Below are positions 1,467 to 6,201 of a DNA stretch of 6,318 nt, in pieces. The stretch comes from Clostridia bacterium (lineage in GTDB: Bacteria; UBA6262; WVXT01; JAUXBS01): contig JAUXDE010000095.1 in assembly GCA_030618495.1 (NCBI GenBank), forward strand, positions 1 through 6,318. Reading direction: 5' to 3'. Both the position numbers and the translations under genes were made by a program. A model generated the notes under the pieces. It made no database searches, had not been told where the DNA came from, and worked only from the letters and a program-made list of their open reading frames with translations. Within the stretch, counting starts at the first letter, position 1; each line of letters starts with the position of its first letter.

Positions 1467-1823
1467 TCAATCCAAATCACTCATATTCATCCTGGTGGTA
1501 ATCTTGTGTTCCAGGTTCCGTACCTTTATGGAGAGTTTGTCAACCTTGTCCCTGCCCCTGACCGCGGTTTCATTTACTTTTTCCTGCAGTTCTGCGATTC
1601 TTGCGTTGTTCTTCGCGTCTTCGGACAGGCTGTTTGAAGAGTCAATTACGGCTATGAGTTGATCCATTTCAGCTTCAATTGCCGCAATTTCGTCTTTGGT
1701 TGCTTTTTCCTGCCGGGTTATTGCCGCCTCAAGACTGGTTTTCTTCTTCTGGAGCGCTTCCATGCTTGCGCAGCCGGCGGCAGTAATGCAGGCAACCAAA
1801 AGTATTCCAATGATTTTTTTCAT
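1467..1823 (-). CDS. Small coiled-coil lipoprotein, function unknown
   Basis: A 118-residue protein with a lipoprotein signal: basic start (Met-Lys-Lys), hydrophobic core IIGILLVACI (4-13) and a lipobox-like Ala15-Ala16-Gly17-Cys18. Ala at -3 is less common than Leu but tolerated. Signal peptidase II cleavage would leave a lipidated Cys18 followed by Ala-Ser, with no Asp at +2 that would suggest inner-membrane retention. The mature part is almost entirely charged helix rich in Glu, Lys, Ala, Leu and Ile. It has two likely coiled-coil stretches (about 21-60 and 75-111) split by a polar break at SSNSLSED (62-69). GGAG at 1831-1834 stands seven bases before the ATG, and only 17 bases separate it from the carB stop, so it is probably the last gene of the carAB transcript. 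I recognise no named family. A Braun-lipoprotein-like or periplasmic spacer role is possible but unproven. Confidence 0.72.
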   Translation of the reverse strand: MKKIIGILLVACITAAGCASMEALQKKKTSLEAAITRQEKATKDEIAAIEAEMDQLIAVIDSSNSLSEDAKNNARIAELQEKVNETAVRGRDKVDKLSIKVRNLEHKITTRMNMSDLD

Positions 1824-1841: not shown

Positions 1842-4800
1842 TTATTTTATTCCTTTATGGTATTGCTGTAATGATTTCACGCTCATCCGGGGTTTTAGTA
1901 TCATATTTTCAATCCCGCTGACAGAGGCCTGCGCTCCGGCTATAGTTGTTATCAACGGAACGCCGTAGAGTATTGCGTTTGATCTTATCTTTGTTTCATC
2001 TTCCTTGGTTGCTTTGCCGGCGGGGGTGTTGATTACAAGGTGAACCTTGTTGTCTTTTATATAATCTATGATGTTTGGCCTTCCTTCGTTGAGTTTGGGC
2101 AGCGTATCCGCCTTAATGTCATTTCGCGTTAATGTATCAGCGGTTCCGGAAGTCGCAAGGATTTTAAAGCCAATGTCTGCGAGTCTTTTTGCGATAAGAA
2201 CTATACTTCTCTTGTCCTGGTTCTTCACGCTTATAAACACTTTTCCCTTACAGGGCAGTTTTTGGCCTGCGGCAAGCTGGCTCTTAAGGTAGGCGGAGCC
2301 AAAAGAGGAATCTATTCCCATAACCTCACCCGTGGATTTCATCTCAGGTCCCAGTATGGCGTCCACTCCGGGAAATTTTATGAAGGGAAACACGGATTCC
2401 TTGACTGCAACGTGTTTTACTTCCTTTTCACTGGTGAATCCGAGTTCCGAGAGTTTTTTGCCGAGCATTATCTTGGTCGCCAGGTTTGCGAGGGGCACGC
2501 CTATAACCTTGCTTATGAAGGGAATAGTCCTGCTTGCCCTGGGATTTACCTCAAGAACGTAAACTACATTGTTCTTGACGGCGTACTGTATGTTTATAAG
2601 GCCCTTTGCGTTCAATTCCTTTGCCATGGCGTAAGTGTTCTTCTTCAAGCGTTCGATTGTATCCCGGTTAAGCGTGTGCGGCGGCAGGACCATGGCGCTG
2701 TCGCCGGAATGTATCCCGGCTTCCTCGATGTGCTCCATTATTCCGCCTATCACGCAGGTATCCCCGTCTGAGATAGCGTCAACGTCCACTTCTATGGCGT
2801 CTTCAAGGAATTTGTCTATAAGTATCGGGTGTTCGCTTGACGCGGCAACGGCTTTTTCCATATAATCTTTCAGGTCACTCTCATCGTAGACGGTTTCCAT
2901 TGCCCTTCCTCCGAGCACATAGGAGGGACGCACCACCACCGGGTAGCCTATTCTATTTGCAACCTTTATTGCTTCTTTGACCGACCTGGCGGTACCGTTT
3001 TCGGGTTGAAGGATGTTCAGTTTTTTAAGCATCTGCTGGAATCTTTTCCTGTCTTCCGCCATGTCAATGGAGTCGGGGCTGGTCCCCAGGATTTTAAGGC
3101 CCGCCTTCGCCAGCGGCACGGATATGTTAAGAGGTGTCTGCCCGCCGAACTGGACTATTATTCCCATGGGTTTTTCAAGGTCCGCGATGTTGAGGACGTC
3201 TTCAACCGTCAACGGTTCAAAGTACAGTTTGTCCGAGGTATCGTAATCGGTGGACACGGTCTCAGGGTTGCAGTTTATCATGATACTTTCGATACCCTCT
3301 TCCTTGAGGGCGAAGGACGCGTGGCAGCAGCAGTAATCAAATTCTATGCCCTGCCCTATCCTGTTTGGCCCGCCGCCGAGTATCAGGACTTTCTTCTTGG
3401 AGGACGGCTTGCTTTCGTTACTGCTTTCGTACGTGGAATAGTAATACGGCTGTTCCGCTTTAAATTCCCCGCCGCAGGTATCCACTAATTTATAAACCGC
3501 TTTCACGTTAAGTTTTTTACGGTACGAACGGACTTTTTTATCCGTTGAATTGAGCAGAAAAGCAAGCTGGACGTCGGAAAAACCGGATTGCTTTGCCTTC
3601 CTGAGCAGGTCAGCGGGTATCTTCAATTTATCTTTGGGGCTCCTGTTCTTATGTTTCACTATGCTTTCCTCCATCCTTACCAGTTGGTCAAGATTTTCTA
3701 TAAACCACCTATCGATTCCTGAAAGTTCGTGTATTTCATCAATGGAAATACCTGCCTTGAGTCCGTATCTTACGTAAAATATTCTTTCATCATTGGGTGT
3801 TGTTATCTTCTGTTTTATTTCTTTTATCAGGTCCGCCGAAGGTTTTATCAGGTCCGCATCCGTGATCCTGTCCTTTCCGTCCGAGCCCAGGCCGAACCTG
3901 CTGGTTTCAGTGGAACGTATTCCCTTCTGCAGAGCTTCCTTAAAGTTTCTGCCTATCGACATGGCTTCCCCTACAGCCTTCATGGAAGTGTTGAGAATCG
4001 CTTTTGCCCGGGGGAATTTTTCAAAGGTAAACCTGCATATTTTAAAGACGCAGTAATCAATGGTGGGTTCAAAGAACGACGTAGTCTTCCCCGTTATCTC
4101 GTTCACTACTTCGGGTAGTGTCAGCCCGATTGCCAGTTTCGTTGCGACCCTCGCTATGGGGAACCCCGTTGCCTTGGAGGCCAGCGCCGAGCTCCTCGAA
4201 AGCCTCGGGTTCACCTCTATGATTACGATGCGGCCGTTTTCAGGGTTCTGGGCGAACTGGATGTTTGCGCCGCCGCCGGTAATATCGATTTTCCTTATAA
4301 TCCTCTTTGAAAGGTTCACGAAGTTCCTGTACTCTTCTGCGGTAAGGCTCTGGGAAGGCGCGACAACTATGCTGTCGCCTGTATGCACGCCCATCGGGTC
4401 AATGTTCTCCATGGAGGTAATCATGATAACGTTGTCGGCGCAGTCGCGCATTACTTCAAACTCTATTTCTTTCCAGCCGAGAACGGATTGTTCAACTAAT
4501 ACCTGGCTTACCGGGCTTATCTCGAGTCCGCTTTTAAGGGATTCGCTGAGTTCCTCCCTGTTATATACGATTGAACCTCCGCTCCCGCCCATGGTGTATG
4601 CGGGCCTGAGAATAAGGGGAAAACCTATCCTCATGCCTATTTTTATCCCTTCGCTGAGGTTTCTTGCTATGCCGCTTTTGGGGGTGTCAACACCGATTTC
4701 CTGCATGGATTTCTTGAAAATCTCCCTGTCCTCAGCCCTTGAAATGGCGGCAATGCTTGCGCCCAAAGGCTCAACTCCGTATTTCTTGAGTATCCCTTCC

Positions 4801-5111
4801 TTCATCAGGAAGAAAGCGAGGTTCAATCCTGTCTGGCCTCCCAGCGTGGGCAGAATGGCATCGGGCCTTTCCTTTTTTATTATTTCAGTAACCACTTCAA
4901 TAGTGAGGGGTTCAATGTAGGTAACATCAGCCATCCTGGTGTCCGTCATGATTGTAGCGGGGTTGCTGTTTACCAGGATTGTATAGTAACCTTCTTCTCT
5001 TAATGCTTTGCAGGCCTGGGACCCGGAATAGTCAAACTCACACGCCTGCCCGATGACTATGGGGCCCGAACCTATCAGCAGTATCTTGTTTATATCACTA
5101 CGCTTTGGCAT
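1842..5111 (-). CDS. carB: Carbamoyl-phosphate synthase large subunit
   Basis: Makes carbamoyl phosphate from bicarbonate, ammonia and two ATP, for pyrimidine and arginine synthesis. At 1089 residues it is full length (E. coli about 1073). Domains in order: carboxyphosphate ATP-grasp half (about 1-400), oligomerisation region (about 401-550), carbamoyl-phosphate ATP-grasp half (about 571-940) and MGS-like allosteric domain (about 950-1089). The first half keeps Arg129, Arg169, GGSGG (175-179) and Glu299-x-Asn301-x-Arg303 with Arg306. The second repeats this with Glu854, Asn856 and Arg858. By alignment from memory with E. coli, shifted by 13, the ornithine-site residues Glu796, Asp804, Glu905 and Thr1055 are present. 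So are UMP-site Lys967, Thr987, Thr990, Lys1006 and Asn1028; one UMP-site Thr is Pro1030. AAGGA at 5119-5123, seven bases before ATG, supports the start. It overlaps carA by 14 bases. The synthetase looks fully functional, unlike its partner's glutaminase. Confidence 0.97.
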
Positions 5112-6201
5112 GTTTACGTCCTTTCTTTTCCCCGGTCATAGCTAAAAACCGTTTAAAGGCATCGTTTACTTCATCAAAACCCGGACAGGCAGGGTAGTAC
5201 TGCGTGGAAATTATTTTAAGTTTTCTGCTTTCAATCTCTTCAATGGTATTATCGTTTAAATTTCTCAGTGTTATTTTGATGTCCCTGTTATTTTTGATTG
5301 AATTTTCATCCACGGTATAAGAATGGTTCTGGACGGTTATTTCCCCCTTGAGAGAGGAGTCGGATTTTATAGGGTAATTAACGCCGTGATGGCCCGTTTT
5401 CAGTTTCTTCAGCCTGCCTCCGAGCGCCAGGCATATAATCTCATGACCCGCGGAGATGCCCATGATGGGGATTTTGCCGACGAGGTTCCTGACGGTCCTG
5501 ACAATCCCGGGAATGGCCCTGTCCTCTTCCGGCCCGTTTGAAACAATAAGGCCGTCGGGTTTCATTTCAAGGATTTTTCCGGCAGGCGTACCGTAGGGCA
5601 GAAGGGTAATGTTGCATTTCAGGGTTTTCAACTGCCCCATGAAACTGTTCAGCATTCCCAGGTCCAGTACGGCTATGTCGGCCCCCGATGGACTTGTTTT
5701 GATTTTTACGGGTTTGGCTACGGATATTCCGCTTATGTGATTGTTTGTGATGTTTTTTCGGCCGTTTTTTAGTTTTTTCAGCAGTTCGCTCTTACTTGAT
5801 TTTCCGGTTGATATTATACCAAGCATTTCCCCGCGGTCCCTTATCCTGATGGCAAGCGTTCTGGTGTCTACCCCGCTGGCAACCAGGACTTTTTCCTTCT
5901 TTATGAAATTGCCGAAACTGTCCGTTGCCTGCCAGTTTGAGTGAATTGCGCTGTCTTCTTTTATTACCAGCGCGCTGAGACTGCATTTTGAAGATTCATT
6001 AAATTTTTCAGCCACGCCGTAGTTACCGATAAGGGGGTATGTGAGAACGATTATTTTTCCGGCATTTGAAGGGTCGGTCATGATTTCCTGGTAGCCGACA
6101 ACAGCGGTGTTGAGAATAACCCTGCCGGTCTTTTCTCCGGGGGTTCCGATTGAAATGCCTTCGAAGGAACTACCGTCTTCCAACACTAAGATTCCTTTCA
6201 T
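5098..6201 (-). CDS. carA: Carbamoyl-phosphate synthase small subunit with a degenerate, probably inactive glutaminase site
   Basis: Normally the glutaminase subunit that hydrolyses glutamine and channels ammonia to CarB. It has 367 residues (E. coli about 382). The N-terminal CarA domain (about 1-150) is well conserved, with LEDGSSFEG (7-15), [10 protein letters not shown] (36-45), TYPLIGNYG (54-62) and GVDTR (110-114). A shortened linker leads to a class I glutamine amidotransferase domain (about 174-355). That domain lacks its catalytic triad: the GICLGHQ elbow reads GISAGHE with Ser250 for Cys, and the HPE motif reads YPA with Tyr336 and Ala338. The pocket is altered as well: SNGPGDP is SNGPEEDR (221-228), and QNHGF is QNHSY (291-295). 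The frame is intact, the structural GHHGVNYP loop (270-277) survives, and the gene overlaps carB, so this is not a simple pseudogene. The start at 6201 is chosen over an in-frame ATG at 6240, which lies inside the promoter. The likely role is structural or regulatory support of an ammonia-using synthase. Confidence 0.93.

Follow-up and report, generated by a model that had tools for sequence, protein, structure and literature searches.

The carA and carB genes described here probably encode an ammonia-dependent carbamoyl-phosphate synthase (CPS) whose small subunit is a pseudo-glutaminase, an arrangement that would be convergent with vertebrate CPS I. They lie in the window, a stretch of 6318 bases that is the complete contig G000:C133 in a 1.69 Mb metagenome bin (98% complete). 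That the enzyme would be a two-subunit CPS dependent on ammonia was predicted in an initial annotation made from the window alone, and wider sampling of sequences supports it: this reading fits best because the large subunit is intact, related gene pairs sit among pyrimidine (pyr) genes and in some genomes no other CarA or CarB was found. The triad-less small subunit is termed CarA* below and its gene carA*.

Both genes are on the minus strand, with carA (6201-5098) overlapping carB (5111-1842) by 14 bases, and they are separate, unfused genes; pgsA and cdsA occupy the plus strand of the same window. The frame of carA is intact, from an ATG at 6201 (minus strand) with AGGAAGG upstream, through 367 amino acids, to a stop that ends at 5098. 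Between carB and cdsA there is also an ORF of 118 amino acids (1467-1823, minus strand) with a lipoprotein-like signal (AAGC) and no Pfam match.

By its domains and predicted fold the product of carA* belongs with CarA. The Pfam domains PF00988 (CPSase_sm_chain, 144.7 bits) and PF00117 (class I GATase, 107.9 bits) are both above cut-off, and the NCBIfam model TIGR01368, ‘glutamine-hydrolyzing’, accepts it at 339.3 bits against a cut-off of 307.35. Foldseek, given a structure model, returned E. coli CarA as its top matches with the C269S mutant (1c30) second-best; only this fold match is used here, since the model (mean pLDDT 71, residues 271-290 under 50) is not reliable enough around the pocket to support statements on geometry. 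The name that comes with TIGR01368 is nevertheless, to judge from the residues, an annotation error for the window protein, since the Cys-His-Glu triad is missing.

E. coli CPS cannot hydrolyse glutamine without Cys269 and His353 (PMC6245113). When the window protein is aligned to E. coli CarA with HMMER, Ser250 (TCC, 5452-5454, minus strand) stands in the column of the nucleophile Cys269, and Tyr336 (TAC, 5194-5196, minus strand) in that of His353; both had been noted in the initial annotation and both are borne out codon by codon in the intact frame. For the third member, said to be replaced by Ala338, the loss of the Glu stands and the manner of it does not: Ala338 aligns with E. coli Ala356, and the catalytic Glu355 is without a partner, having been deleted at the Pro337-Ala338 junction (5188-5193, minus strand) in a loop shorter by one residue, as in 43/43 members of the clade considered below. 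Nor are the changes confined to the triad. With E. coli numbering first, and all on the minus strand where positions are given, they include Gly243>Glu225 (5527-5529), Leu270>Ala251, Gln273>Glu254, Gly293>Val274 (5380-5382) at a tunnel position, His295>Tyr276 (5374-5376), Gly313>Ser294 and Pro360>Phe342. Within the set of glutamine-contact positions, which we take to be S47, G241, G243, Q273, N311 and G313, the window protein keeps S47, G241 and N311 and has Glu, Glu and Ser at G243, Q273 and G313, respectively.

Neither chance nor sequencing error, the latter doubted from the outset, explains these changes, since the same kind recurs in independently assembled genomes. In a search of 98 whole genomes, close relatives (66-68% identity) came from a sister family within the window's order, where four genomes carry them, and a more remote one (57%) from a distant genome; all have Ser at the nucleophile and QYYP instead of QFHPE. 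A scan of 84,980 species genomes for Q[YF]YPxxPGFDE gave 13 loci, one with Ala at the nucleophile column, and these include several Candidatus Omnitrophota, Deltaproteobacteria bacterium RBG_13_61_14 and Pseudomonadota bacterium CSMAG_150. Among 384 sampled genomes of Omnitrophota, the phylum of one of the relatives (G108), 38 had profile scores of at least 445 bits and the next match scored 389, a clear gap; the best 30 loci of that search were taken for the reading of new sequences. Triad-less CarA then comprises 43 sequences from the window's order, RBG_13_61_14, CSMAG_150 and Omnitrophota. In a tree of 80 CarA proteins, built by a quick method with the motif columns left out and no eukaryotes, a single branch separates all 43 from the rest (SH-aLRT 100), which answers affirmatively the question, raised in the initial annotation, of whether the altered residues mark a clade. 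The CarB partners of CarA* are also one clade (N-halves, 21 rows, support 100) and therefore the two travel together.

Across the clade His and Glu are absent in 43/43, with 11 different residues in the His column, and Cys is absent in 42/43, its place being taken by Ser in 31/43 and by Ala, Gly or Val in 11/43. The one member with Cys (L161, from G357) reads GICTGHQ and has neither His nor Glu; either this Cys disappeared after His and Glu had gone, or it was regained. Set against 37 canonical CarA proteins, two replacements are fixed (Gly243>Glu and His295>Tyr, each in 43/43 clade members and 0/37 canonical CarA), and Gly293>Val, Ser47>Ala, Gly313>Ser and Pro360>Phe are found in most of the clade. 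Between close clade pairs dN/dS is 0.06-0.23 for the whole gene, and the GATase part is overall no looser, being under comparable constraint. On this comparison of sequences, the catalytic columns drift and the remaining site is rebuilt and held. Outside the clade, an otherwise canonical CarA (L040, from G020) reads QYNPE, with Asn for the catalytic His, an isolated case.

The partner CarB (1842-5111, minus strand, 1089 amino acids) is a full-length large subunit. It matches the large-subunit model NF003671 at 1632 bits, has both ATP-grasp domains together with the oligomerisation and MGS (allosteric) domains, and aligns to E. coli CarB over nearly its full length with the catalytic motifs of both halves kept. 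Its similarity score is 1256 bits with E. coli versus 837 bits with human CPS1, and the motifs of its MGS domain, ATxGTA and EGRPNI, look E. coli-like, an observation relevant to N-acetylglutamate activation, a trait of vertebrate CPS I. The N-half has clade-specific changes, for instance RPSF>RPAY and IEMNPRVSR>IEVNPRLSR. N-half motifs also resemble those of eukaryotic CPS, a likeness left unused as evidence; the glutamine-dependent CAD shares these eukaryotic-type N-half motifs.

CarA* and its CarB are adjacent at every locus read. The order is pyrR-pyrB-pyrC-(TIGR00375)-(TIGR00725)-carA*-carB-fpg-...-pyrK-...-pyrD-pyrF in G103 and pyrR-pyrB-pyrC-carA*-carB in G106, and carA*-carB is followed by pyrK-pyrD-pyrF in G108 and G156. 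How often is this pair the only CPS? Within 42 sampled CarA* genomes examined for CarB, 26 have in addition a CarB of 470-580 amino acids, one has a fragment and 15 have no second CarB, while none has a second full-length one; RBG_13_61_14 and CSMAG_150, which are outside this set, do. Four genomes of the sister family (G002-G005; 96, 92, 83 and 86% complete) have one CarA and one CarB each, both of CarA*B type, with a 41-position CarA fragment besides in G003, and one to three transcarbamylase matches each, some partial. Going by their titles the genomes are metagenome bins, and these absences of other CarA or CarB are provisional, resting as they do on incomplete assemblies.

The window organism itself need not depend on ammonia, since it also has a triad-bearing CarA. 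A search for a second carA with Cys-His-Glu, proposed at the start, found it at G000:C89:10647-11729 (motifs GICLGHQ and QFHPE), paired in G000:C89 (8958-11729, locus L017) with a carB of 551 amino acids that ends just past the oligomerisation domain; the neighbours run gdhA, canonical carA, half-length carB, then glmS, purF and pyrG. No free CarB C-half was found in the window bin, and none follows half-length carB wherever downstream sequence was read. The congener and many Omnitrophota also have canonical CarA with a half-length CarB (~550 amino acids, N-half only; loci L102-L108, L111, L177-L191, L199-L200 and L214-L224). In CarA* genomes every half-length CarB whose locus was read goes with canonical CarA, and half-length CarB seems to form a single clade (36 rows, support 84). 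A strict coupling of CarA* with half-length CarB is weakened by Omnitrophota that have the latter without the former: in 37 genomes of that phylum lacking CarA*, 12 have half-length CarB only and two more have one plus a full-length CarB. Because CPS enzymes of half size that function as dimers are on record (PMC6022934), the pairing of canonical CarA and half-length CarB is plausibly a smaller, glutamine-dependent CPS. The split CPS of Aquifex aeolicus and the small CPS of Methanobrevibacter smithii, in which half-size subunits work, are precedents for it (PMC6022934); the window pair differs from them in its full-length CarB, and the window genome in that no separate C-half gene was found there.

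With a triad-bearing CarA in the window genome, it might be that glutaminase is provided in trans, by docking of the cell's canonical CarA or some other amidotransferase on full-length CarB, which would so receive ammonia derived from glutamine, with CarA* a regulatory competitor. The presence of half-length CarB, with canonical CarA where the locus was read, in 26/42 sampled CarA* genomes is in its favor, but we consider it improbable: no second CarB was detected in 15/42 genomes or in G002-G005, nor was canonical CarA in the latter, a CarB of its own lies next to canonical CarA, and CarA* and CarB form matching clades and are neighbors at all loci read. It is doubtful, too, that both CPSs in the window genome belong to one system, joined via the shared oligomerisation domain and splitting glutamine-derived from ammonia-derived nitrogen, with the CarA* pocket (Glu225, Tyr276) sensing another ligand; this would pair a glutaminase-active CarA and half-length CarB with a glutaminase-dead CarA* and full-length CarB.

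Has CarA*B ceased to be a CPS, to use another nitrogen nucleophile or to act as a regulator? The fixed new residues Glu225 and Tyr276 do suggest a remodelled pocket, and the clade-specific changes in the CarB N-half point the same way, but the active-site motifs are intact in both CarB halves, the surrounding pyr genes need carbamoyl phosphate, and several genomes with carbamoyltransferases offer no CPS candidate besides CarA*B, all of which leaves such a departure quite unlikely. The chance that the altered pocket still hydrolyses glutamine, via Ser250 or another nucleophile, is slight: Ser is the commonest residue in its column, but Ser250 as an alternative nucleophile was rejected because relatives carry Ala, Gly or Val there, and His and Glu are always absent. 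A pseudogene, assembly error or contaminant contig, conceivable when the window amounts to an entire contig of 6.3 kb from a metagenome bin, is hardly credible given intact frames, low dN/dS, the same features in dozens of genomes and, in congener G001, a matching CarB C-half at 80% identity, broken off at a contig end.

For the ammonia-dependent synthase that we favor, the following scheme is envisaged. CarA* keeps the small-subunit fold and the partnership with CarB but would be unable to hydrolyse glutamine: the triad is gone, several glutamine contacts are altered and Val occupies tunnel position Gly293. Free NH3 from solution would enter the carboxyphosphate site of the CarB N-half, carbamate would pass to the C-half, and the carbamoyl phosphate would feed pyrimidine synthesis and, where CarA*B is the only CPS, arginine synthesis also. 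CarA* may persist as a structural or allosteric subunit, like the dead glutaminase domain of CPS I. E. coli CPS does take ammonia at high concentration (PMC6245113). Several points count against this explanation: the concentrations needed by the E. coli enzyme are very high and probably unphysiological (PMC6245113), no change expected to lower the ammonia Km was identified, another glutaminase could supply ammonia in trans, and in the window genome the triad-bearing CarA could in principle dock on full-length CarB.

Human CPS1, the ammonia-dependent enzyme of the urea cycle, functions with an inactive glutaminase domain in which Ser294 replaces the Cys of the triad, and Gln at the Gly293 position blocks the ammonia tunnel (PMC4655335). 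The likeness to vertebrate CPS I extends to a retained small-subunit domain, a dead glutaminase with its nucleophile Cys turned to Ser, replacement of tunnel Gly293 (mostly by Val in the CarA* clade) and a full two-half synthetase. Vertebrate CPS I is, however, a single fused polypeptide rather than separate CarA and CarB, and CarA*B differs further in having lost His and Glu as well, in its pyrimidine-gene setting in several genomes and in its E. coli-like MGS motifs; the early description of the window protein, which is without all three triad residues, as like CPS I but more degenerate was apt. From CarB similarity scores and gene structure, the tree being without eukaryotes, the origin of CarA*B appears independent of CPS I. 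With the glutamine-dependent CarAB of E. coli the likeness is in gene order, subunit architecture, domains, including the allosteric one, and CarB motifs, whereas CarA* is without Cys-His-Glu, the Glu being deleted, and has altered glutamine contacts. In having Ser at the nucleophile CarA* is the counterpart in nature of the engineered dead glutaminase E. coli CarA C269S (PDB 1c30), but it is conserved and far more altered.

The nitrogen donor of E. coli CPS under physiological conditions is described as glutamine, a view extended to bacterial CPSs in general (PMC6245113), and CPS I is described as the only type not using it (PMC4655335). Neither a bacterial CPS that depends on ammonia and has a dead CarA nor an Omnitrophota CPS turned up in a search of open-access papers. 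If ammonia-fed, the CarA* clade would mean that an ammonia-type CPS had arisen a second time, apparently independently, with a role in pyrimidine metabolism and not in the urea cycle, and it could be used to ask what purpose a dead amidotransferase subunit serves.

CarA* may not be alone in its loss. In several genomes a divergent PurF-like gene adjoins carA*B (L112:13665-15071, L125:5167-6642, L114:4571-6046, L192:5977-7443 and L228:27-1427). The four copies read (L112, L114, L125 and L192) start with MSGIFG, so that the class II nucleophile Cys1 has become Ser, and the HVRYST motif is gone; going by these motifs the gene is apparently a second dead glutaminase beside CarA*. G110 carries a normal purF besides.
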